This document shows, piece after piece, positions 7,846-19,554 of a DNA stretch of 21,838 nucleotides (the stretch's first letter is position 1; the number at the start of each line of letters is the position of its first letter). The translations under genes were made by a program, and so were the position numbers. The notes below the pieces were generated by a model. That model ran no database searches and was not told the DNA's origin. It saw only the letters and a program-made list of their open reading frames with translations. This stretch comes from an uncultured Butyricicoccus sp. (GTDB lineage: Bacteria; Bacillota; Clostridia; Oscillospirales; Butyricicoccaceae), in the NCBI GenBank assembly GCA_900557315.1, contig USSI01000006.1, positions 1-21,838 of the forward strand, in the 5' to 3' direction.

Positions 7846-8712
7846 GTGAAGGTCTTAAATGAACCGGGTGTGCTCGCACGTTCGGAGCGTTTTTTTTCCA
7901 CGCCGTCAGCAACCGCGCGGGGGCTGTTTTTCTATGTGACCCGCGTCGGGCATTATTATTACGATGCACGTTATAATTTTCTTGACAGCTGCGATGTGGC
8001 GCGGCTGGAAAGCCATAAAAACTACTACCTTACCTATATCCGTTCGGGTTCCATGCATTTCGAGACCGGGCAGCGGTTTACCGCGGAGCGCGGACAGGTT
8101 GCACTGGTTGACTGCCATAAGCGGCATCGGTTTTATACTTCGGGCGACGCCGAGGCCATGTGGATACACTTTGACGGCGCAAATTCCGCTGCTTTTTTTG
8201 AACAGATCATTGCGTTCCGCGGCGGAAAACAGGCATTTGATCCTGCGGCGGACGGCCGCATCGAGCAGGAAATGGCGCAGATCATTTCCGGCCTGCGCAC
8301 CGCGAGCATGAGCGAGGTGGATTGTTCACAGCGGATTTACCGGATTCTGTGTTCCCTGCTGTTTCCCCAGCCACAGGCCGGCGGCCTTTCCGACAACAGT
8401 GCGATTACCAAAGCGGTGCAGTACATCAATGCGCATCTGTTCGAATCGCTCTCGGTTGAACGCGTCGCGCATGCGGTCAACCTCAGCCCCTCTCACTTTT
8501 CCAGGCTGTTCCGCAGCACAACCGGGTTTTCTCCGCATGAGTATATCATGCTGCACCGGATCGACGAGGCCAAGGCGCTGCTGCAGTCAACCAACCTTTC
8601 CGTTAAAGAAATTGCCTTCCGCGTCGGATACCATAGCGAAGTAAATTTTATCACTGCATTTACGGACAAAACCGGCACTTCCCCAACGCAGTTCCGCAAG
8701 AACACCCTGTAA
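7846..8712 (+). CDS. AraC-family transcriptional regulator
   Basis: DNA-binding regulator of 288 residues, normal for the family. Residues about 35-120 match the cupin-like sensor domain seen in AraC proteins (YLTYIRSGSMHFETGQ, ALVDCHKRHRFY, MWIHFDG). The C-terminal 100 residues hold the double helix-turn-helix: SVERVAHAVNLSPSHFSRLF is the first helix-turn-helix, and SVKEIAFRVGYHSEVNFITAF leads into the hallmark second one, ending in GTSPTQFRK. The GTG at 7846 is preceded by GGAAGG about 11 bases upstream, and no in-frame ATG lies nearby. It diverges from the MATE transporter with a 154-base shared control region, so it probably regulates that gene in response to a small ligand. The ligand is unknown. 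Confidence 0.93.
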   Translation: MKVLNEPGVLARSERFFSTPSATARGLFFYVTRVGHYYYDARYNFLDSCDVARLESHKNYYLTYIRSGSMHFETGQRFTAERGQVALVDCHKRHRFYTSGDAEAMWIHFDGANSAAFFEQIIAFRGGKQAFDPAADGRIEQEMAQIISGLRTASMSEVDCSQRIYRILCSLLFPQPQAGGLSDNSAITKAVQYINAHLFESLSVERVAHAVNLSPSHFSRLFRSTTGFSPHEYIMLHRIDEAKALLQSTNLSVKEIAFRVGYHSEVNFITAFTDKTGTSPTQFRKNTL

Positions 8713-8728
8713 CAGGCCCGGATATGGC

Positions 8729-8766
8729 GACAGGCGGCAGGAAAACCTGCCGCCTGTTGTTTTTTC
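8729..8766 (+). terminator. Intrinsic terminator of the AraC-family gene
   Basis: ACAGGCGGCAGG and CCTGCCGCCTGT form a 12-pair stem with an AAAA loop, followed on the plus strand by TGTTTTTT. The same stem lies just after the SLH gene stop on the minus strand, but there it lacks a T-run, so it is a clear terminator only for the plus-strand gene. Confidence 0.85.
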
Positions 8767-8767
8767 A

Positions 8768-11128
8768 TTATTCAGCGACAATCACACGGATTTTGCCGCC
8801 GTCTTCCGCCGCCCTGTTGGCATAAACGCGGAAGGAAGAGTAATTGGATTTTGCGCTCTGAAGCGAGATGAATTCGCGGCGAGCGGAGACATACACACCG
8901 ATATCATCCGCCAGCTCGTAATAACCATCACTGGTGCGCACACCGGTTGAGCCGTCGAACGCAGCAAGATCCACCGTATCGACAAGCGTCAATTCCAGCG
9001 TATCCAGGCCGCTGTTGACGATACTTGCATTGGTCGAATATCCCTTAGGAATACCAACCGGCCGTCCGCTCAGGCCGCCCGGCAGGGCATTGACCCGATA
9101 ACTGCTTTCTACCGTTTCCGAGCCGTTCCAGTAGCGCATGACAACCGCATTGGTGTAGGTATAACGATCCGGGTTTGCATCCATATAGTCCTGCTGCTCG
9201 TCGGACGACAAATCCTCCCACGGCGTACCATCTACGGCTTCCGGCTCATTAAACGCCCCTTTCACACGATCACCGAACCCGATACCGTAAATCCAGCTGT
9301 CGCCGGTCACATCGCCCAGCACAATATTGGTGATCGTGCCGGCGCTGTCGGACGTTGTATAGCGGATCTGACTCGACGGCACGCTTGCAGCATTGATATC
9401 CGAAACCGCGATTGCTGACAACGGCGCGCCGGAAATGACTTCTTCATAAACACGAACCCGCGGGGACACTGTCTTGTCTCCCAGCCTGCCATCGGCTACC
9501 GTCCAGTTACCCGAAGCCTTGCCGGAAAGATCGCGCTTGGTCAGGTAAACCGAGCCGTTGTTGGACTGACCTACTGTGACCAGACGGCCCATCAGGCCGC
9601 TCAGGTCATCTGCGCTGACCGTGATGTCCCGGAGCGTCAGACCATTCATCAGAGATACCGTGGCCTGGTTGCCATCAAGACCAGTGACTACGCCCTGCAT
9701 ATCTGCACTGACCGTACTCTTGGGAAAAGCCGCTGCCACATCGCCTGCCGTATTAAACAGCAGGGTAATATAGTCGTTCAGCTTAATATTGGCAAAGGTA
9801 GCGGCAGCGCTGTCCGAAATGGCATAGGTTTGCCCAAACATGGTAACCGACTGCGGATAATTATAGGTCGGTGTGCCTGCCGTATACTGGCCGCTGATTT
9901 TTGCATCAGATACAAGCGCCTGCTTGTTTGCGGTGTCAAGCGTCACCACATCATACTTCTTCAATTTTGAACGGTCAACCACGACGCCGTTCTTGACAAT
10001 TTCATATTCCGCCGGAATATTAGCAGAAGTCGCAAGGCCATAGACAAACGAATTCCCGCTTCCGGACGAGACCTGCGGTAGCACTGCCATCAGCACCTGC
10101 GAGCCGTATTCATCATAGTAAACGGTCAGCGTGTCGCCCTGCTGGATGCCGGACCACATCTCCGCAAAGGTACCGAGTTTATGCCCTTCCCTTGCGATGT
10201 ACACTTCTGCGCTGCGGTTCGGACGGAGCGTCTGGGTTTCGGTCTGGATGCTGTCCGCTGAAACACCGGTCACCTGATAGGTTTCCGTCCGGTTCCCGTT
10301 GGGGATCAGGCCGAGCGCCACATTGTTCCCATCTTTTCCGATAACAATGGTGCCGTAAACGCCAATCGAACTGCTGTCCAGCGTGCCGGAGGTTCTGCGC
10401 GGCGTGGCGCTGACCGTCCCAGCCTCAAAGAAGATCGCCTCATTCGGCGCAAGCGAGCTGTCGGTTTCACTGGTCGCCAGCAGGATGCAGTCTTCAATGG
10501 TAGAGGAGGCCACTTTGTCAAGCAGCATGCCGCTTCCCTCACCCTTGAGGGAGGTACCCAGTGTATTGAGCAGCATGATTGCTGCATCCGAACGCTTGAC
10601 TGCCGACTTCGGATCGGTAGAGGATACCCCGTCGGTCAGCCCGAGAGACTGTGCGCGGGCGATGTAATCCGCGGGCCAGAACGGGCCGATGTCTTCTTCG
10701 GTATAGCCCAGCATACGAAGCAGCATGGTGCACACTTCGCCGAAATTGACGGTTTTATCCGGTCCAAATGTGCCGTCCGCATAGCCGCGGATGATGGCCT
10801 GCTCTTTCAGGTCCGGATGACGCACGGCCGCATTGATATACTGCGCTGCCCAGTGCGTGTTTTTGACATCCGGGAAAATCGTATAGCTTCCATATGCGCT
10901 GACATCAGAAAATCCCATCGTAGTAACTGCCATTTTGCAGAACTGCGCACGGGTCAGCGAGCCGTTCGGATTGAACTGGTTATTTCCCATACCCTGCATG
11001 ATGCCGAGTGCATCCAGGATAGCGGCAGTCTGTGCAAGCTTGCTGTCTGAAATATCCGAAAATGCCGCGGATGCAGGAGCAAAAGTAAAGACCAGCGCCA
11101 AACAGATGCTGAGGATTCGTTTTTTCAT
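8768..11128 (-). CDS. Secreted S-layer-homology (SLH) domain protein
   Basis: Exported cell-wall protein of 786 residues. The N-terminus (KKRILSICLALVFTFAPASAAF, residues 2-23) is a Sec signal peptide with a likely AxA cleavage near 22. Three SLH repeats follow at about 24-75, 84-141 and 149-195, including TRAQF (59-63) and GYADGTFGPDKTV (115-127). Such repeats dock on pyruvylated secondary cell-wall polymer. Only repeat 1 keeps a TRAE-like motif; repeats 2 and 3 read NFGEV and KRSDA. Residues 200-786 are rich in short beta-type segments and match no enzyme I recognise. The ATG at 11128 follows GGAGGTAGG. The gene starts 14 bases after the permease stop, so it is the last gene of the exporter operon. 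It may be the exported partner of the transporter or a wall anchor for it; both are inference. Confidence 0.9.
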   Translation of the reverse strand: MKKRILSICLALVFTFAPASAAFSDISDSKLAQTAAILDALGIMQGMGNNQFNPNGSLTRAQFCKMAVTTMGFSDVSAYGSYTIFPDVKNTHWAAQYINAAVRHPDLKEQAIIRGYADGTFGPDKTVNFGEVCTMLLRMLGYTEEDIGPFWPADYIARAQSLGLTDGVSSTDPKSAVKRSDAAIMLLNTLGTSLKGEGSGMLLDKVASSTIEDCILLATSETDSSLAPNEAIFFEAGTVSATPRRTSGTLDSSSIGVYGTIVIGKDGNNVALGLIPNGNRTETYQVTGVSADSIQTETQTLRPNRSAEVYIAREGHKLGTFAEMWSGIQQGDTLTVYYDEYGSQVLMAVLPQVSSGSGNSFVYGLATSANIPAEYEIVKNGVVVDRSKLKKYDVVTLDTANKQALVSDAKISGQYTAGTPTYNYPQSVTMFGQTYAISDSAAATFANIKLNDYITLLFNTAGDVAAAFPKSTVSADMQGVVTGLDGNQATVSLMNGLTLRDITVSADDLSGLMGRLVTVGQSNNGSVYLTKRDLSGKASGNWTVADGRLGDKTVSPRVRVYEEVISGAPLSAIAVSDINAASVPSSQIRYTTSDSAGTITNIVLGDVTGDSWIYGIGFGDRVKGAFNEPEAVDGTPWEDLSSDEQQDYMDANPDRYTYTNAVVMRYWNGSETVESSYRVNALPGGLSGRPVGIPKGYSTNASIVNSGLDTLELTLVDTVDLAAFDGSTGVRTSDGYYELADDIGVYVSARREFISLQSAKSNYSSFRVYANRAAEDGGKIRVIVAE

Positions 11129-11142
11129 TTTTCCTACCTCCT

Positions 11143-12390
11143 TTATTGGGTGCGCAGCGCGTCAACCGGCTGCAGATTGGACGCTTTGTTCGCCGGATAC
11201 AGGCCGAAAACAATGCCCAGCAGCGCGGAGAACAGGAACGCACCGATCATCAGGCCAACGGACGGCAGCACGGTAAACTGTTCAACAGCAGGCATATAGC
11301 TGCTTTGCAGCTGCCCTAACAGAAGGTTGCCGATGATTGCTGACAGGAAACATCCCAAAACAATGCCAATGATGCCGCCAAAGCACGAAACAACCGCCGC
11401 TTCAATCAGAAATTGCCCAATGATATCGCGTTTGCGCGCGCCGATCGCCATGCGGATGCCGATTTCGCGTGTACGCTCGGTAACTGAAACCAGCATGATA
11501 TTCATGATACCGATGCCGCCGACAAGCAGTGAGATACTTGCAATACCACCGCCCAGGAGCGCCAGCATGTTGGTGGAGGACTCGGACTGCGCCTGCCATT
11601 CACTGTTGGAATAGGCGCTGAAATAGCCGCCGTTGTTCTCGCACCTGGTCTGCATGAATTCTGGCAAAAGGGTACCTGTCAGCTCGGGGATATCATCTTC
11701 AGTTGCAGCCTTGATGACATACTGTTTGTCTGCCATGCCGCTCACACTCATCATGCTGTTCTGCAGCGTATATGGCATGACAATCAGCTGGTCTTCTGTG
11801 TTGAGCTTGCCGTCATATTTCCCTTCGTAGACACCTATGATCTCGAAACTCTTTCCGCCGATGCGGAGCTTCTGGCCCAGCGGGCTCATAGCGCCGAAAA
11901 AGTATTTACGGATGGTTTCGCCGATTACGCATACCCGCGCACGGCTGGTACAGTCTGCCGCGGATATATCGCGCCCGGCGGAGATGGTATGGCTGGTTAC
12001 CTCGCCATAATCCTGATTGCCGAAATACATATAAGTATAGCTGTTTTCATTGGACAAGGTCTGCGAACGGTATTGGATGCCGTCGCTCTGCCAGTCGTAA
12101 TATTGAGTCTGCGGCGACCATGCGGCAACCTTGTCCGCAAGTTCGGTATCCAGGTATTCCTCAAAATCCTCCCAGTCCCGGCTTTTTGCACACCAGCCAT
12201 AAACATCAATACGGTTGACACCCATGGCCTCGTATTGCAGACGCTGGAGTTTGCTGGTGCCCTGAATGGAGGCAACAATGGCGATGACCGAAGCCACGCC
12301 GATGATAATGCCCAGCATGGTCAGGATAGAGCGCACCTTATTGTTCATGATGGATTTGAATGCCATGCGTACGGTCTGCATCCAGTTCAT
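11143..12390 (-). CDS. MacB/FtsX-type ABC transporter permease
   Basis: Membrane permease of 415 residues. The order is membrane span (about 20-45, SILTMLGIIIGVASVIAIVA), then an extracytoplasmic MacB_PCD domain (about 48-265), then three C-terminal spans of the FtsX domain. The last part contains the family's GGIGIMNIMLVSVTERTREI and GIRMAIGARKRDI motifs near 293-325 that couple to the ATPase. The ATG at 12390 overlaps the ATPase stop in an ATGA arrangement, a sign of translational coupling. Together with the ATPase and adaptor it matches MacAB of Gram-negatives and YknXYZ of Bacillus, which drive mechanotransmission-type export or toxin defence. The substrate here is unknown. Nothing is truncated. 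Confidence 0.93.
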   Translation of the reverse strand: MNWMQTVRMAFKSIMNNKVRSILTMLGIIIGVASVIAIVASIQGTSKLQRLQYEAMGVNRIDVYGWCAKSRDWEDFEEYLDTELADKVAAWSPQTQYYDWQSDGIQYRSQTLSNENSYTYMYFGNQDYGEVTSHTISAGRDISAADCTSRARVCVIGETIRKYFFGAMSPLGQKLRIGGKSFEIIGVYEGKYDGKLNTEDQLIVMPYTLQNSMMSVSGMADKQYVIKAATEDDIPELTGTLLPEFMQTRCENNGGYFSAYSNSEWQAQSESSTNMLALLGGGIASISLLVGGIGIMNIMLVSVTERTREIGIRMAIGARKRDIIGQFLIEAAVVSCFGGIIGIVLGCFLSAIIGNLLLGQLQSSYMPAVEQFTVLPSVGLMIGAFLFSALLGIVFGLYPANKASNLQPVDALRTQ

Positions 12391-13145
12391 GCGCCGCTCC
12401 CCCCTTCCACGGGCGCATCCGAGATAATATGGCCGTCCTGAATGGTGACAATCCGCTTTGCCATTTGCGCAAGGTGGTTGTCATGTGTAATCAGAATGAT
12501 CGAAGTCCCCTGCTCATTGAGCGCGGTCAACTGTTTCATAATATCCAGGCCGGAAGCCGAATCCAGATTGCCGGTCGGCTCGTCCGCCATGATGATCGGC
12601 GGTTTTGCCGCGACCGCGCGTGCGATTGCAACGCGCTGCTGCTGGCCGCCCGACATTTCACCCGGGCGGTGGTCCATACGGTTTTCCAGCCCGACCGAAG
12701 CCAGGGCCTCTTTCGCCAACGTACGGCGCTCTTCCCGGCCGAGGCCGCGGTAAATCAGCGGCAGTTCGACATTCTCGAGCGCGGTCAGCGCCGGGATCAG
12801 GTTAAAGCCCTGAAAGATAAAACCGATCTCACGGTTCCGGATGCCGGAGAGCACGGAAGGCTTCATGTCGCTGACCGCCTGCCCGTCGAGATAGTAGGTG
12901 CCATAGGTCGGGATGTCCAGGCAGCCGAGGATGTTCATCAGCGTGGACTTACCCGAACCGGACTGTCCCAAGATGCACAAGAATTCGCCCCACTTCACAG
13001 TCAGCGAGATATTGTCAAGGGCCCGGACCTCATTTTCACGTCCTTCATTATAAATTTTGCTCATCTGCCGGACGTCGATCAGCAGTTCGGAAGCTGCAGT
13101 TTCAGATCTGATTTCCGCGGCCGGAGGCGCTTTTTTACCAAACAT
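12387..13145 (-). CDS. MacB-type ABC transporter ATP-binding protein
   Basis: Cytosolic ATPase that powers the adjacent permease. The ATG at 13145 gives 252 residues and has AGGAGG 5 bases upstream; a TTG 18 bases further up (13163) overlaps the adaptor gene and is less likely. After a 25-residue lead-in the domain shows Walker [10 protein letters not shown]-loop [12 protein letters not shown], signature [14 protein letters not shown], Walker [14 protein letters not shown] and the H-loop ILITHD. This is the LolD/MacB class, recognised by [12 protein letters not shown] and the NLDSASG D-loop. It begins 10 bases after the adaptor gene and overlaps the permease by 4 bases, so all three are one transcription and translation unit. 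Confidence 0.95.
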
Positions 13146-13155
13146 AGCGCCCTCC

Positions 13156-15084
13156 TCAGCCAACTGCTACGCCCATATCCATGCCCATGTCCGCATAGAG
13201 ATCCTGCGGCCCGGCCAGATAGACCGTTGTGCCTTCGTCAATCCCCCAGAGGATTTCCGTATTGGTCGAATCCGAGATACCGATCTCAACCGGCACCAGA
13301 TAATAGCCTTCCGGAATCCCTTCCGTACCCTCGGGGATGGTCAGAGTCTCCGCGAACGGGATTTCCTCTCCGTTCTCATCGAGAAGCGGCTGTGCAAATA
13401 CCGCTGTGCCGTCCTCGGTGTTGACGATAGCACTCGAAGGCACCATCAGGCAATCCATCGAAGAAGCGGTGGTGATCTGGTAATCCACCATCATGCCGCT
13501 GTAGATCGACTGGCCTTCGATCGGGTCAATGGCAATCACCGCGCGGAAGGTCGGCATGCTGCCCTGGCCGCCGCTTCCATCCTGTGTCGGTTCGAGGGCA
13601 ACCGATTCAACAACACCGGTCAGCATCAGCTGCGAGCCGTCGTAAGTATACATATTCATCGTAGCGGGCAGGCCTTCCTGCACTGCACCGACATCGGTGG
13701 ACATCACATCTGCATTGACCACGATATCATTAAGGTCTGCAACCACAACCAGCGCATCTGTCCCTGTAATTTCCTGATCTTCCACCGCGTTCAGGCTGAC
13801 GACCACACCGTCGATCGGGGATTCGATCGTCGAATCGGCAATCAGGTCGCGAAGCTCAGAAATGCGGGCCTGCTTTTCCGTGACCTGGCGCTGTGCCGTA
13901 GTCACGCCATTGCGCGCCGTGGTCACGCCGCTCTGCGCGTTTTTCACCTCATCCTGTGCAGAATCGCTCGACAGGCGCATGATGGTAGCGCCGCTGCTGT
14001 AGCTGTAATAGTCGATGCCATTCATTGAGGTGATCTCACCGCTGACCTGCGCGGTTACAGCCTCTTCGCGGCTGTATTCCAGCGTACCAGCCTCCGCAGG
14101 ATAAACCGTGCCTGCACTGCCGGCGGAAACAGTGGCGGTTGCCGTCATCCCCTTGGTCAGCGTGCCGGGGTTATCGACCGAAATGACCACACGGAACACC
14201 TTGACACCGTCGCTCGAAACGCGTTCGGTTTTTTCTACCTCGGAAACCGTACCGCTGACTTCGCTCATGGCGGACGGGATGGAAACGGTTGCGCCCTGGC
14301 CGGACTGAATATCATTGATATAGGCAGAACTGAAAAGCAGGGACAGCTTCATTTTGCTGTCATCCACCATATAGCCGATCACTTCGCCCTCGCTCACCTG
14401 CTGGCCAACCCGGTAAGTCGTGCTGCTGCCTTCCTCATCGGTTACCGGGATGATTTTTCCAGTAAAGGGAGCAGTTACATTCAGTTTGCTCAACTGATTT
14501 TGTGCGGTGTTGAGGGTGTTCTGTGCGCGTGTCACCTCCGCCTGCGCTTCGGTTACCGCACGCTGGGCATCGGCCAATTCATCCTGCGCGGTTTCCAGTT
14601 CATTCCGCGTTTCAGTGGGGTTGACAACAATCAGCTCATCCCCTTTTTTGACCTCGTCACCGACTTCCACCAGAACTTCAGTGACCGTACCCTTCAGGTC
14701 GCGCCCGAGCTCCTCGCGCTTTTTCGCCGCCGTGACGCCGCTGCCCTCTATGTAGGTTTCCAGCATACCGCGGGTGGCGACTGCAGTTGTGTTTACTGTT
14801 TCCTCGCTTCCCGCGTTGCGCGTTTTCAACACAAGGAATACGCCTGCTGCAATCAGCGCGACAATGACAGCAATACCAATGCCGATACGGACACCGCGGT
14901 TTAACTTGCTTTTCTTTTTGTTCATTTTGTCCGCGTATTTGTTGCGTTTTGGCGGCTCCCCACTGCTGTTGGACGTATCAGGTGCCGGAGATGCGGCATT
15001 CGTAGAGACGTCGCTGCCAGCCTTTGCGATATGCGCGCCGCCCTTGGAAACAGGTTGTTTCTGCTGCTTGTTTTCTTCACTCAT
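13156..15084 (-). CDS. MacA/HlyD-type efflux adaptor with duplicated lipoyl/coiled-coil module
   Basis: Membrane-anchored adaptor of 642 residues, longer than the 350-450 usual for MacA or YknX. A Ser/Pro/Lys-rich cytosolic tail (1-63) leads to one membrane span at 66-86. Two HlyD-like modules follow. Module 1: lipoyl half near 130-155, coiled coil 160-200 (ETAQDELADAQRAVTEAQ), second lipoyl half LNVTAPFTGKIIPV at 201-214, then a beta-barrel to about 322. Module 2: lipoyl half 340-370, coiled coil 377-415 (QDEVKNAQSGVTTARNGVTT), ADSTIESPIDGVVVSLN at 416-432, beta-barrel and membrane-proximal domain to 625. The C-terminus is Met-rich (ADMGMDMGVAVG). The ATG at 15084 has AAAGGA 8 bases upstream. 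It should link the permease to the cell wall or SLH partner; that role is inference. Confidence 0.92.
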   Translation of the reverse strand: MSEENKQQKQPVSKGGAHIAKAGSDVSTNAASPAPDTSNSSGEPPKRNKYADKMNKKKSKLNRGVRIGIGIAVIVALIAAGVFLVLKTRNAGSEETVNTTAVATRGMLETYIEGSGVTAAKKREELGRDLKGTVTEVLVEVGDEVKKGDELIVVNPTETRNELETAQDELADAQRAVTEAQAEVTRAQNTLNTAQNQLSKLNVTAPFTGKIIPVTDEEGSSTTYRVGQQVSEGEVIGYMVDDSKMKLSLLFSSAYINDIQSGQGATVSIPSAMSEVSGTVSEVEKTERVSSDGVKVFRVVISVDNPGTLTKGMTATATVSAGSAGTVYPAEAGTLEYSREEAVTAQVSGEITSMNGIDYYSYSSGATIMRLSSDSAQDEVKNAQSGVTTARNGVTTAQRQVTEKQARISELRDLIADSTIESPIDGVVVSLNAVEDQEITGTDALVVVADLNDIVVNADVMSTDVGAVQEGLPATMNMYTYDGSQLMLTGVVESVALEPTQDGSGGQGSMPTFRAVIAIDPIEGQSIYSGMMVDYQITTASSMDCLMVPSSAIVNTEDGTAVFAQPLLDENGEEIPFAETLTIPEGTEGIPEGYYLVPVEIGISDSTNTEILWGIDEGTTVYLAGPQDLYADMGMDMGVAVG

Positions 15085-15137: not shown

Positions 15138-15165
15138 ATTACATTTTCGATGATGGATCATGCAA
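15138..15165 (-). promoter_or_regulatory. Weak candidate promoter in front of the adaptor gene
   Basis: TGTAAT (15138-15143) is a good -10, but the -35 TTGCAT (15160-15165) is poor and the spacer is 16 bases. It overlaps the kinase stop codon. It would allow the exporter operon to be read apart from the kinase. Confidence 0.25.
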
Positions 15166-15667
15166 GAAGCGATCCAAAGAAAGCGTACACCTTTTCGGGA
15201 AGCTTGTCCAAAGGAACGTCGTTAACAAACACCGCATCATAGTTATACGCGGTTACGCCGTCATCAGAACGGTTGCCTAACGGACCTCGGGCCTGTTCCA
15301 GTGCCGGCCGGCGCACCAGTATTGTCCGGCAGCCCTTCCCCACCGCATTCCGGAAACGTTCAATTTCCTCCGGCTCCCGGATGTGGACGAAAAGCAGCTG
15401 CTGATCGCTCTGTACAAACCGTGCATACTGCTCCATGCAGTAACAAAAGGGCAGGTCGTTGAATTCGGTACAAGCTTCTTTCAAACGGGAAAGGAAACGC
15501 CGGGATTCGGGTGTCTTGACCCCGTCCCAGCCAGCTGCGTATGCCACATCAAGAATTGGAGTAATCGACGAGATGTTTTGCACCCGCCAGAACCGGGCAG
15601 CAAGTTCACAAACCGTGTCCTTGCCGACACCGCCGCTGCCGTTGATGACAAATATATGTTTGCCCAC
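15158..15667 (-). CDS. P-loop (deoxy)nucleotide kinase-like protein
   Basis: Cytosolic protein of 169 residues with a Walker A GSGGVGKDT at residues 10-18, the K-D/S-T form seen in nucleoside monophosphate kinases, phage dNMP kinases and dephospho-CoA kinase. Later features are FVHIREPEEIERF (Walker-B-like strand, about 93-105), ILVRRP (about 115-120, where NMP kinases keep a lid arginine) and a NYDAVFVND strand near the end. These fit an adenylate-kinase-like fold but not a single substrate. The GTG at 15667 has GGGGGT 7 bases upstream. A promoter stands at 15704-15732. It is 73 bases upstream of the adaptor gene in the same direction, so it may be the first gene of that operon or a separate unit. 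The specific substrate is not determined. Confidence 0.85.
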   Translation of the reverse strand: MGKHIFVINGSGGVGKDTVCELAARFWRVQNISSITPILDVAYAAGWDGVKTPESRRFLSRLKEACTEFNDLPFCYCMEQYARFVQSDQQLLFVHIREPEEIERFRNAVGKGCRTILVRRPALEQARGPLGNRSDDGVTAYNYDAVFVNDVPLDKLPEKVYAFFGSLLA

Positions 15668-15910: not shown

Positions 15911-15947
15911 TTGACTTTTTGCTCGGTGCGTCATATCATTCTATTAT
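15911..15947 (+). promoter_or_regulatory. Promoter of the hydrogenase operon
   Basis: TTGACT at 15911-15916, a 17-base spacer and TATCAT at 15934-15939 form a good sigma-A promoter. A second set, TTGCTC (15919) and TATTAT (15942-15947), also spaced 17, overlaps it. Both lie just before the ribosome binding site at 15958-15967, so the leader is very short. Confidence 0.65.
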
Positions 15948-15973
15948 ATAACTTCCATGGAGGAGGGAAATCC

Positions 15974-17806
15974 TTGAGCCGTTTATCCATTGCGACGCCT
16001 GGGCGGGCGCAGACCGTTGTCGAAGGCCTGTATCGTGACGTCGAACATCGTATCAGCGCCAGTCCTCCGGGGCTATGCCCGGTTGATATGGCGCTTTCTT
16101 TCCTGCGCCTTTGTCATGCGCAGACCTGCGGCAAATGTGTGCCTTGCCGAATCGGGTTAGGGCAGCTCACAACGCTGCTGGAGTCTGTTCTGGACTCCAC
16201 CGCGTCTCTTGAAACCATTGACTTGATTGAAAAGACCGCGCGCGTGATTCAGGATACTGCTGATTGCGCGATTGGCTATGAAGCGGCGCGTATGGTGCTG
16301 CAGGGCGTGCAGGGTTTTCGTGAGGATTATGTCTCCCACGTGCAGCACGGCCGCTGTCTGTATGGACTTAACCAGCCGGTGCCCTGCGTGGCGCTGTGCC
16401 CTGCCGGGGTGGATATCCCGGGCTATATCGCGCTGGTGCGTGCAGGCCAGTATAATGATGCTGTGCGCCTGAGCCGTAAGGATAATCCGTTCCCAACCGT
16501 TTGCGGCTATGTTTGCGAGCATCCCTGCGAAGCCCGCTGCCGCCGCCGCATGGTGGACGACGCAGTCAACATCTGCGGAATCAAGAGGTTTGCGTGCGAC
16601 CACGCAACCGACTGGACTGCCCCGCCGTGTGCTGAGCCGACCGGTAAGAAAATCGGTATCATCGGCGGCGGCCCTTGCGGCCTTTCCGCTGCCTATTTCC
16701 TGTCGCTGATGGGACATCAGGTCGTCGTGTATGACCAGCGGCCCAAGCTCGGCGGCATGCTGCGCTATGGCATTCCGGATTACCGTCTGCCGGCCGAAAA
16801 ACTGGATGCGGATATTGAATTCATCCTGTCCACTGGTATCGAAGTACATACCAATACCGCGATCGGACAGGATATCCCGTTTTCCGATATTGAAAACCAG
16901 TATGATGCCGTTTATATTGCAATCGGTGCACATAACGATAAAAAGCTTGGTATTGAGGGCGAAAACAGCGAGGGAGTCTATTCTGCTGTCCGTCTGCTGC
17001 GGGACATTGGCGAGGGCAGGGTGCCGGACTTCCGGGGCAAGCGCGTATGCGTGGTCGGCGGCGGCAACGTGTCTATGGACGCAACCCGTACCGCAATCCG
17101 CCTGGGCGCGCAGTCGGTAACCTGTGTATATCGCCGCCGCATCAACGATATGACTGCGCTGGCTGAGGAGATTGAGGACGCGCAGAGCGAAGGCTGTCAG
17201 ATTCTGCCGCTTCAGGCGCCCGATCATATCGAAGCGGATGAAAACGGGCATGTCACTGCATTGTGGACGCGGCCTCAGATTATCGGCGCCTATGGATCGG
17301 ACGGACGGCCTCGTCCCAATGATGCAGACGCACCGCTGTTCCGCATTCCGTGCGATATTGTCATCGTAGCTATTGGACAGGCGATTGATGCCCAGCCCTT
17401 TGAGCAGGTCACACCAGTCGTGCGCGGCAGGATACAGGCAGAATCCGATGCTTTTGTTCCGAATACGCCGCATGTTTTTGCGGGCGGCGACGCAGTCACC
17501 GGCCCTGCAACGGTTATCCGTGCGGTTGCAGCAGGCAAGGTTGCTGCCGCTAACATTGATACGCATTTAGGGTTCCATCATATTATTGAATCCGACGTGG
17601 ACATCCCTGCCCCGCATCTGACCAATTCCCCTGCCTGTGGCCGTGTCGAACTGCGCAACCGCCCGGTGGGCGAATGCGTTGGCAGTTTCGAACTGGTGAA
17701 ATGCGGCATGAGCGAAGAGGAGGCGCAGCAGGAAACCTCGCGTTGCCTGCGGTGCGACCATTTCGGCTACGGTATATTTAAAGGAGGGCGTTCATCCAAA
17801 TGGTAA
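15974..17806 (+). CDS. NuoF-4Fe4S / GltD-like NAD(P)H-FAD oxidoreductase, hydrogenase partner
   Basis: Flavoprotein of 610 residues from the TTG at 15974, which has GGAGGAGGG 6 bases upstream. The frame is open to 15911, but that part is promoter DNA. Order of domains: a NuoF C-terminal-type 4Fe-4S module (about 1-110) with C52xxC55xxC58 in TCGKCVPCRIG and the fourth ligand C98; a GltD N-terminal Fe-S domain (about 130-210) with C138, C142, C177, C181, C185, C189; then two Rossmann folds with IGIIGGGPCGLSAAY (228-241, FAD) and VCVVGGGNVSMDA (358-370, NAD(P)H); and a C-terminal CLRC pair. The NuoF FMN/NADH domain is absent. It overlaps the hydrogenase gene by 7 bases, so it most likely passes electrons between NAD(P)H and that enzyme. 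YRRR after the second fold favours NADPH; this is inference. Confidence 0.9.
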   Translation: MSRLSIATPGRAQTVVEGLYRDVEHRISASPPGLCPVDMALSFLRLCHAQTCGKCVPCRIGLGQLTTLLESVLDSTASLETIDLIEKTARVIQDTADCAIGYEAARMVLQGVQGFREDYVSHVQHGRCLYGLNQPVPCVALCPAGVDIPGYIALVRAGQYNDAVRLSRKDNPFPTVCGYVCEHPCEARCRRRMVDDAVNICGIKRFACDHATDWTAPPCAEPTGKKIGIIGGGPCGLSAAYFLSLMGHQVVVYDQRPKLGGMLRYGIPDYRLPAEKLDADIEFILSTGIEVHTNTAIGQDIPFSDIENQYDAVYIAIGAHNDKKLGIEGENSEGVYSAVRLLRDIGEGRVPDFRGKRVCVVGGGNVSMDATRTAIRLGAQSVTCVYRRRINDMTALAEEIEDAQSEGCQILPLQAPDHIEADENGHVTALWTRPQIIGAYGSDGRPRPNDADAPLFRIPCDIVIVAIGQAIDAQPFEQVTPVVRGRIQAESDAFVPNTPHVFAGGDAVTGPATVIRAVAAGKVAAANIDTHLGFHHIIESDVDIPAPHLTNSPACGRVELRNRPVGECVGSFELVKCGMSEEEAQQETSRCLRCDHFGYGIFKGGRSSKW

Positions 17807-19554
17807 CTGTTACGATCAACGGGGTATCGGTATCAGTTCCCGAGGGCACGACCATTCTGGACGCTGCGGCCTCGGTGGGGATCGAGATCCCCAGCCTGTG
17901 TTATTTAAAGGATATCAACGAGATTTCGGCCTGCCGTGTGTGCTGCGTTGAGATCGAGGGCGAAGGCAAGCTTGTGCCTTCCTGCAACAACGTGGTCAGC
18001 GAAGGAATGGTGATCCACACCAATTCTCCGCGTGTACGCGAGGCGCGCCGTACGAATGTAGAACTGATTCTGTCCCAGCATGACAACAAGTGTGCCACCT
18101 GTGTCCGCTCGGGTACCTGCCGCCTGCAGAAAGTGGCAAATGATCTGGGTGTGCTGAATATTCCCTACCCGCCCGATCTGGCGCGCGGCAAAAAAACATT
18201 CTGGACAACCACGTTCCCGCTCTACCGCGATGCCAACAAATGTATCAAGTGTATGCGCTGTGTGCAGATATGCGACAAGGTGCAGTCACTCTCTGTATGG
18301 GACGTAAGCGGTTCCGGTTCACGCACCACGATTGATGTGTCGGAAAACCGCTTTATTAAGGAATCCGACTGCTCGCTCTGTGGCCAGTGCATTACCCATT
18401 GCCCCACCGGTGCACTGCGTGAGCGCGACGATACTGCGAAGGCATTCGCAGCCCTGGCGGCACCGGATAAGGTGACGATTGTGCAGATTGCGCCCGCGGT
18501 ACGCACCGCTTGGGGCGAAGTGTTTGGCATGGAAAGCGGCGCGGCAACCGTCGGTCAAATGGTAACTGCCCTGCGGCAGATGGGGGCCGACTATGTATAT
18601 GATACTACGTTTTCTGCTGACCTGACGATTATGGAAGAAGGTACGGAACTGCTGCACCGTCTGCGGGATGGGGACCTGGCCGTTCAGCCTATGTTTACTT
18701 CCTGCTGCCCGGGCTGGGTGCGCTTCCTGAAGTCCCAGTATCCCGAGCTGACCGGACGGCTGTCCACTGCCAAATCCCCGCAGCAAATGTTCGGTGCGGT
18801 AACGAAAACCTGGCTTGCGGAACGTCTGAACCTTGATCCGAAGGATATCGTCAGCATTTCCATCATGCCATGCGTAGCCAAAAAAGCAGAGAATGAGCTG
18901 CCTGGCATGCAGTCTGAAGTGGGATGTGACGTTGACCTTGTGCTGACTACACGTGAGCTTGCGCGCATGGTGCGTGCAGAAAACATCGAGGTGGCCCACT
19001 TGGAAGAATCTGCGTTTGACTCCCCGCTGGGTGATGGCACCGGTGCAGGCGTGATCTTCGGTGCGACAGGCGGCGTCATGGAGGCTGCACTGCGGTCCGC
19101 GTATTTCCTCACTACCGGCGAAAACCCGCCTGCGGATGCGTTCCGCGAGGTACGCAGTGATGGACAAGTGCGCGGCTGGCGTGAAGCAACCTTTGACCTC
19201 GCTGGTACGCCGGTTCGCTGCGCGGTAGCAAGCGGGCTTAGAAACGCACGCCGTCTGATCCGGGCGCTCAAACGCGGGGAAGTGCAATATGAGTTTGTTG
19301 AGATCATGGCCTGCCCGGGCGGCTGCGCAGGCGGCGGCGGTCAGCCGGTGGACGGCAGTGACCGGGAAAAAGCAGAGTCGCGTGGTGCAGTTCTGTATGA
19401 TCTTGACCGCATGTCGGAACTGCGTTTCTCGCATGAAAACCCGGCGGTTCAGGCATTGTATCGTGAATATCTGGATGAACCCTGTTCGGAAAAGGCGGAA
19501 CATCTGCTTCACTGCGATCATTTTGCATGGCAGATGCCAAAACATCAGTCATAA
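17800..19554 (+). CDS. hydA: [FeFe] hydrogenase, group A, NuoG-like N-terminus
   Basis: Cytosolic enzyme of 584 residues that makes or oxidises H2. It keeps every expected metal site: 2Fe-2S C34, C45, C48, C62; His/Cys 4Fe-4S H94, C98, C101, C107; two ferredoxin clusters C148/C151/C154/C158 and C191/C194/C197/C201; H-cluster motifs L1 TSCCPGW (300-306), L2 MPCVAKKAE (356-364) and L3 EIMACPGGCAGGGGQP (501-516). H-cluster ligands are C303, C358, C505 and C509, and C302 is the expected proton relay. The small-subunit-like tail is fused at the C-terminus. The ATG at 17800 has AAAGGAGGG upstream and overlaps the end of the flavoprotein gene, a mark of coupled translation. The combination suggests a NAD(P)H-linked hydrogenase that may be confurcating; no NuoE-like subunit is nearby. 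Confidence 0.97.
   Translation: MVTVTINGVSVSVPEGTTILDAAASVGIEIPSLCYLKDINEISACRVCCVEIEGEGKLVPSCNNVVSEGMVIHTNSPRVREARRTNVELILSQHDNKCATCVRSGTCRLQKVANDLGVLNIPYPPDLARGKKTFWTTTFPLYRDANKCIKCMRCVQICDKVQSLSVWDVSGSGSRTTIDVSENRFIKESDCSLCGQCITHCPTGALRERDDTAKAFAALAAPDKVTIVQIAPAVRTAWGEVFGMESGAATVGQMVTALRQMGADYVYDTTFSADLTIMEEGTELLHRLRDGDLAVQPMFTSCCPGWVRFLKSQYPELTGRLSTAKSPQQMFGAVTKTWLAERLNLDPKDIVSISIMPCVAKKAENELPGMQSEVGCDVDLVLTTRELARMVRAENIEVAHLEESAFDSPLGDGTGAGVIFGATGGVMEAALRSAYFLTTGENPPADAFREVRSDGQVRGWREATFDLAGTPVRCAVASGLRNARRLIRALKRGEVQYEFVEIMACPGGCAGGGGQPVDGSDREKAESRGAVLYDLDRMSELRFSHENPAVQALYREYLDEPCSEKAEHLLHCDHFAWQMPKHQS

Follow-up and report, generated by a model that had tools for sequence, protein, structure and literature searches.

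Four adjoining genes on the minus strand of the window, the whole stretch of 21,838 nucleotides analysed here, encode an adaptor, an ABC ATPase, a MacB-family permease and a protein with SLH domains. On balance we favour the view that these four genes together specify a single exporter of the MacB (mechanotransmission) type, powered by ATP and serving a cell that lacks an outer membrane. The SLH protein is most likely a dedicated extracellular subunit of this machine, bound to the wall and docking on the adaptor. By gene position, the SLH gene holds the place that TolC-like genes occupy in sister pumps.

Arrangement of the gene unit

Based on open reading frames and the sequence itself, the order within the unit (8768-15084) is adaptor, ATPase, permease and SLH protein, with gaps of 10, -4 and 14 bases. 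The adaptor, a membrane fusion protein of 642 aa encoded at 13156..15084 on the minus strand, matches TIGR01730 at 132.5 bits (cut-off 94.9). Its stop is separated by 10 bases from the ATG, at 13145, of a MacB/LolD-type ABC ATPase (12387..13145, minus strand; PF00005 at 110.7 bits), which in turn overlaps the permease gene by 4 bases. The MacB-family permease (11143..12390, minus strand, 415 aa) comprises a MacB_PCD domain at residues 21-237 and an FtsX domain at residues 283-408. Right behind its stop lies the Shine-Dalgarno sequence AGGAGGT (11136..11142, minus strand) of the fourth gene, which encodes the SLH protein (8768..11128, minus strand, 786 aa; open reading frame and Pfam SLH). An earlier note on this DNA had given the same coordinates, gaps and domain calls, all of which are correct, and its description of an SLH protein with a signal peptide 14 bases behind the permease is likewise borne out, the signal peptide being read by eye.

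From this spacing the four genes are probably co-transcribed. The earlier note held that a strong promoter inside the permease gene would speak for separate expression; a consensus scan finds no promoter-like site within that gene, promoter-like sites in general being at chance level (7 versus 4.6 in shuffles). A strong terminator-like hairpin of 16 pairs (10 G-C) with a T run is found at 8726..8761, between the SLH gene and a convergent AraC-family gene, terminator-like sites overall also being at chance level (7 found versus 6.2 in shuffles).

The AraC-family regulator (7846-8712) has this hairpin in common with the unit. Its gene is present, at 68-86% identity, in 6 of the 80 SLH loci described below, and the gene upstream of the adaptor (15158-15667), which is P-loop kinase-like by eye and has no Pfam match, is present in 17 of them. 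Neither is therefore counted as part of the unit. The region 15911-19554 encodes an iron-only hydrogenase as well as a pyridine-nucleotide oxidoreductase that carries iron-sulphur domains.

The pump and its doubled adaptor

The pump is a MacB-family ABC exporter by its periplasmic core, its FtsX domain and its MacB/LolD-type ATPase. Pfam matches of the permease reach 114.6 bits for MacB_PCD (PF12704, cut-off 27) and 83.2 bits for FtsX (PF02687, cut-off 25.5), and the permease profile aligns with the solved MacB 5lil (E 2.3e-91), the separate permease 5xu1 (E 3.5e-79) and the YknZ domain 5f9q (E 3.9e-12). In the ATPase the motifs GQSGSGKST and MSGGQQQR are recognized by eye. Its best NCBIfam match is MacB NF007826 at 253 bits, which does not reach the full-length cut-off of 966, and LolD scores 224.4.

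By eye the adaptor consists of a cytoplasmic tail, one membrane span and two tandem MacA-type modules, and Pfam HlyD_3 matches it at 74.7 bits in two stretches. Module 1 (residues 98-330, 14095..14793, minus strand) and module 2 (residues 331-540, 13465..14094, minus strand) align to each other in hhalign with a probability of 99.7 and an E of 4.2e-26 over 186 columns at 16% identity, and the best stretch of the adaptor profile against solved MacA falls in module 2. To judge from these alignments the protein is a tandem double MacA-type adaptor, unlike the single-module MacA. Of the 90 SLH systems that could be evaluated, 89 have at least two modules; in the remaining one, L257, the adaptor is broken up into two frames. 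Among systems without an SLH gene 24 have one module, one has none and 33 have two or more, so that doubling is a trait of the wider group and not alone the mark of an SLH system. Adaptor length was rejected as such a marker, as adaptors of at least 500 aa are also found without SLH; module count is the better marker, yet not an exclusive one.

The pattern RxxxLxxxxxxS (RLS) is described, in the part of the source available, as a TolC-docking motif at the hairpin tip (PMC3391258). It occurs anywhere in 3 of 90 SLH-type adaptors compared with 8.9 in shuffles, and is thus not enriched. In the window's adaptor the pattern matches once, at residue 407, which belongs to module 2. Two of three adaptors of TolC-like systems contain the pattern, in both cases ahead of the hairpins, at frame residues 58 and 81.

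The SLH protein

The SLH protein begins with a Sec-type signal peptide (residues 1-22, 11063..11128), assigned by eye and from the alignment, followed by a triple SLH module with the motif LTRAQFCK (residues 23-190, 10559..11062) and a β-rich body of small OB-like barrels (residues 275-786, 8771..10306), all on the minus strand. Pfam SLH matches at 71.9 bits, with two stretches individually over the cut-off, and in a predicted model residues 23-204 match the triple-SLH domains of SpaA and Sap. An earlier model of the whole protein was weak (pLDDT 70.8); the model of the body is confident (pLDDT 92.0, pTM 0.85) and consists of many small β barrels, which singly resemble OB-type folds with Z below 8. 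No whole-length relative of the body was found among the matches listed by Foldseek or in 982 chains aligned, which does not amount to evidence for a new fold. Kinship with TolC was considered and rejected, as the protein has no PF02321 match and SLH is its only Pfam match at E 0.001; nor does Pfam detect a hydrolase domain. The wall-polymer pyruvyl transferase family PF04230 (CsaB) is represented in 15 of 15 genomes of relatives. The two best loci by SLH protein (L001 and L002; 77% and 81% in the best segment) come from Candidatus Agathobaculum genomes, which places the source organism near Agathobaculum.

Linkage of the SLH gene to the transporter

A profile of 19 SLH proteins yielded 134 confirmed loci in species genomes, 80 of which were used for the analysis. 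A permease lies upstream of the SLH gene in 72 of these 80, at a distance of 10-51 bases in 63 loci, 79-296 bases in eight and 6482 bases in one. Wherever the complete set of four genes is present (65 loci) their order is kept, and the ATPase and permease genes overlap by 4 bases in 65 of the 71 loci where this was measured. The conserved order and the upstream permease indicate that the arrangement is more than chance. Among the eight loci without a permease, L033 and L046 have less than 0.5 kb of DNA upstream, L015 has the adaptor directly ahead of the SLH gene, and L047, L069, L075, L076 and L080 have space for a permease where none was found.

In L075 (1240-8028) an SLH protein of the window's type is encoded 183 bases behind an adaptor-RND pair. 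A general role of the SLH gene as efflux-pump partner was rejected: at 30 RND loci of the order no SLH-profile match is found on either strand within about 1.5 kb or less on each side (L315 having merely 349 bases downstream), and the L075 case therefore looks single. At L113 (4628-5638) the SLH gene of the operon is truncated and a full-length copy is located elsewhere in the same genome.

Counts anchored on the permease are independent of selection by the SLH gene. The permease is found at E 1e-60 or better in 98 of 245 genomes of the order, and 130 of 135 listed places were counted; four places, all SLH-followed (L121, L122, L125 and L126), were counted with the 15 genomes below, and one at a contig edge (G136:C19) was left out. 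Among close relatives of the permease the SLH gene comes next in 80 of 99 places (16 not, 3 contig edges), and among ordinary MacB relatives in 0 of 31 (30 not, 1 edge). Sorted by permease score, places of at least 480 bits have the SLH gene in 43 cases and lack it in 4 (3 edges), those of 325-480 bits have it in 37 and lack it in 12, and those below 310 bits have it in none and lack it in 30 (1 edge). One lineage without an adjoining SLH gene (L082-L085) carries one about 6.3 kb downstream in both cases with a long contig (L231, L234), the contig stopping 4.3 and 1.7 kb downstream in the other two (L232, L233). In L153 the SLH gene begins about 960 bases downstream of the permease.

In 15 hand-chosen genomes 19 further permease places were counted, 10 with the SLH gene and 9 without, two of the latter being ordinary MacB. 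In the class sample the permease is matched in 178 of 391 genomes; 40 places outside the order sample, taken by hand as about every fourth among the matches listed, comprise 27 with SLH, 4 with a TolC-like gene, 8 with neither and 1 edge. The phylum sample has a match in 131 of 398 genomes, and the best 30 loci, 29 of them new, add 8 with SLH, 2 with a TolC-family gene, 18 with neither and 1 edge. Six phylum loci (L324-L328 and L335) show the permease followed by an SLH protein that has no body-profile match in the sequenced part examined.

Taken together, these counts show a strong SLH link within the order, one that is common across the class and becomes patchy further out. The earlier note had considered SLH genes scattered independently of the transporter as grounds against its view; in most relatives the gene goes with the transporter, and in a minority it is unlinked or missing. 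The lack of an SLH gene right after 16 of 99, 9 of 19, 8 of 40 and 18 of 29 places counts against the explanation that we favour.

Phylogeny and co-duplication

Of 190 loci read, L128 has no permease and L177 (with SLH) is too short, leaving 188 and the window for tree building. Two quick permease trees were made, with SH-aLRT support only, hand-rooted on L130 and with long branches that meet. In the first, of 189 permeases, all 117 that are SLH-followed (window included) fall into one clade of 147 (SH-aLRT 87), which also holds 22 unlinked, 4 TolC-like and 4 edge rows; outside it an SLH gene follows in 0 of 42 rows, one of them a contig edge. In the second, of 218 rows (29 added, the labels of the phylum rows being assigned by hand), 125 of 125 SLH-followed permeases fall into a clade of 182 (SH-aLRT 85), with 0 of 36 outside, again including one contig edge. 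Parsimony on this tree requires 17 changes of the SLH label versus a mean of 70.2 in shuffles. We read this as a probable single origin of the SLH pairing with several losses, moves and replacements, which trees of this kind suggest and do not prove.

Among 17 permeases of the first type in the 15 hand-chosen genomes, 14 have a full-length SLH gene next to them. Of the other three, G013 and G014 have the full-length SLH gene on a contig other than that of the transporter, and G015 combines a truncated SLH gene at the operon with a full-length one at another place in the genome. The 15 genomes also harbour 12 permeases of a distant second type, matched at E 7e-119 to 9e-102; eight of these, in six genomes, adjoin an SLH protein of their own (frames of 619-678 aa) and four have none adjoining. 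For 17 hand-chosen pairs, nine of the first type and eight of the second, the SLH tree and the permease tree each split types A and B at 100/100. By the concordance of these trees, SLH protein and permease duplicated together.

TolC-like genes at the same position

At L258, L259, L263 and L277 the permease is followed, after 4-24 bases, by the gene of a protein of roughly 380 aa that begins, as judged by eye, with a signal peptide. The label of these four as TolC-like in the locus count is circular, the profile having been built on them, and the independent evidence is thus the match to PF02321 (cut-off 22), at 34.9 bits for L263, 34.4 for L277, 34.0 for L259 and, just under the cut-off, 20.9 for L258. 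In the phylum sample L331 and L338 have strong PF02321 matches behind the permease (124.4 and 95.6 bits). A TolC-like gene therefore follows the permease in six sister transporters, five of them over the Pfam cut-off.

No Omp85 match was obtained in 27 genomes of unstated completeness (the six with a TolC-like gene in the slot, the 15 hand-chosen and 6 others), the control giving a match in 7 of 14 known genomes, including that of E. coli. By that one marker, none of the 27 has an outer membrane. TolC-family matches are present in 18 of these Omp85-negative genomes. To our knowledge no role has been assigned to TolC-like proteins in genomes without Omp85, so the analogy between the slots is a positional one. 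A proteomic study of the Gram-positive Desulfotomaculum reducens reports, in its accessible part, a PF02321 protein from the surface proteome (PMC4137172). Directly behind RND pumps at L294-L296 are proteins of about 340 aa that by eye resemble TolC, and lipoprotein-like genes occur near the place downstream of the RND genes at L300, L302, L305, L306 and L313.

Discussion

The conserved linkage, the co-duplication and the TolC-like gene in the same slot point to the SLH protein as a third, extracellular component of the pump. In line with this are the single clade of SLH-followed permeases, the doubled adaptors of SLH systems, the missing Omp85 match in 27 genomes and the PF04230 family in 15 of 15. 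In such a machine pumping by the ATPase and permease would start at the membrane's outer face, and the double-length adaptor would sit on the permease as a ring or tube. The SLH protein would leave the cell by Sec, its three SLH domains would bind pyruvylated wall polymer, and its body, a chain of barrels, would be presented to the adaptor. The pump would thus be tethered at the wall and its product passed into or through it. Docking of the SLH body on the adaptor, tethering at the wall in the source organism, and the passage and identity of a substrate are inferences. A third component of this kind would fit the proposal, made in the accessible portions of two papers, that the adaptors of Gram-positive cells ferry substrates through the space separating membrane from wall (PMC5768738; PMC5985334). 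Weighing on the other side, besides the places without an adjoining SLH gene, are the unlinked or truncated SLH genes of G013, G014 and G015, the four second-type transporters with none next to them, the two-module adaptors of 33 systems without SLH, the RLS pattern that is not enriched, a slot analogy that is one of position, and a body for which no whole-length relative is listed.

It is possible, if rather doubtful, that the unit goes further and is a true tripartite MacAB of single-membrane Clostridia. The SLH protein would then replace the TolC exit, the doubled adaptor would form the tube from membrane to wall, and TolC-like and SLH proteins would be alternatives within one clade.

The earlier note had offered the SLH protein either as the extracellular part of the machine or as its dedicated substrate. 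Conservation, the single clade, co-duplication and the TolC-like genes in the same slot favour the former, and the latter remains as a rival that we consider unlikely. As dedicated cargo, the SLH protein would be exported by Sec and then lifted off the membrane to the wall, as LolCDE lifts lipoproteins. Its linkage to and co-duplication with the pump and its signal peptide, read by eye, are consistent with this, as is the view, given in the accessible part of a review, that MacB-family pumps do their work at the membrane's outer face (PMC5985334). Against it, the same genomes, with 3 to 16 SLH profile matches each (counted as stretches, not proteins), also have SLH matches away from the pump, so that SLH proteins as such seem not to need the pump, and sister pumps have a TolC-like gene in the slot.

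Less probable again is an SLH gene that shares only its expression with the pump, perhaps as part of an envelope-stress response, with no contact between the products. The two are unlinked in G013 and G014, and some 6.3 kb separates them in L064, L231 and L234, as this would allow; the conserved tight spacing, the single clade, the co-duplication and the absence of an SLH gene at all 31 ordinary MacB places argue for more than shared expression.

FtsEX is not known to have an adaptor, and its partner is a wall hydrolase or its activator. A device for wall remodelling or sensing, in which permease motion would drive the SLH protein as FtsEX drives EnvC or PcsB and nothing is transported, seems the least probable, since, despite the FtsX-type domain (PF02687) of the permease and the wall enzymes encoded next at two loci without SLH (a D-Ala-D-Ala carboxypeptidase at 587 bases in L252, a glycosidase-amidase at 280 bases in L272), the SLH protein has no hydrolase domain by Pfam and the unit has a MacA-type adaptor.

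Comparison with known systems

A review of the MacB family asks, in its accessible part, what role the adaptor has in Gram-positive cells, which lack an outer membrane (PMC5985334). With the extracellular subunit that we favour, the fourth gene, often linked to the pump in Clostridia and wall-binding by its domain, provides a named partner for that question. The pairing suggests how MacAB-family pumps may work without an outer membrane in gut bacteria that apparently have a single membrane. In the open-licence literature of PubMed Central, represented mostly by titles and the openings of abstracts, a pairing of a MacAB-type pump with an SLH protein was not found.

The closest Gram-positive systems, by a separate ATPase and permease with an adaptor, are YknWXYZ of Bacillus and Spr0693-0695 of Streptococcus pneumoniae. 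In the accessible parts of their descriptions no SLH protein is mentioned, and their MacA-like adaptors are said to have a single set of hairpin, lipoyl and barrel domains, unlike the doubled adaptor of the window; YknW is there a membrane protein with four spans. For Spr0693-0695 an assembly of roughly 154 Å has been modelled (PMC5768738). FtsEX likewise combines an FtsX-type permease with an extracellular partner. SpaA and Sap carry SLH wall-binding domains in S-layer proteins, whereas the SLH protein of the window is linked to a transporter and has a different body. The TolC-like (PF02321) proteins of the sister pumps, of about 380-400 aa, share the place in the operon and the signal peptide by eye, but are unrelated in sequence to the SLH protein, which lacks their Pfam match. 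With MacAB-TolC of Gram-negative bacteria the window's system shares the MacB-family permease core, the MacB/LolD-type ATPase and the MacA-type adaptor modules. It differs in that the RLS docking pattern is not enriched in SLH-type adaptors, that ATPase and permease are separate genes rather than one fused chain, that the adaptor is doubled, and that an SLH protein stands in place of TolC.
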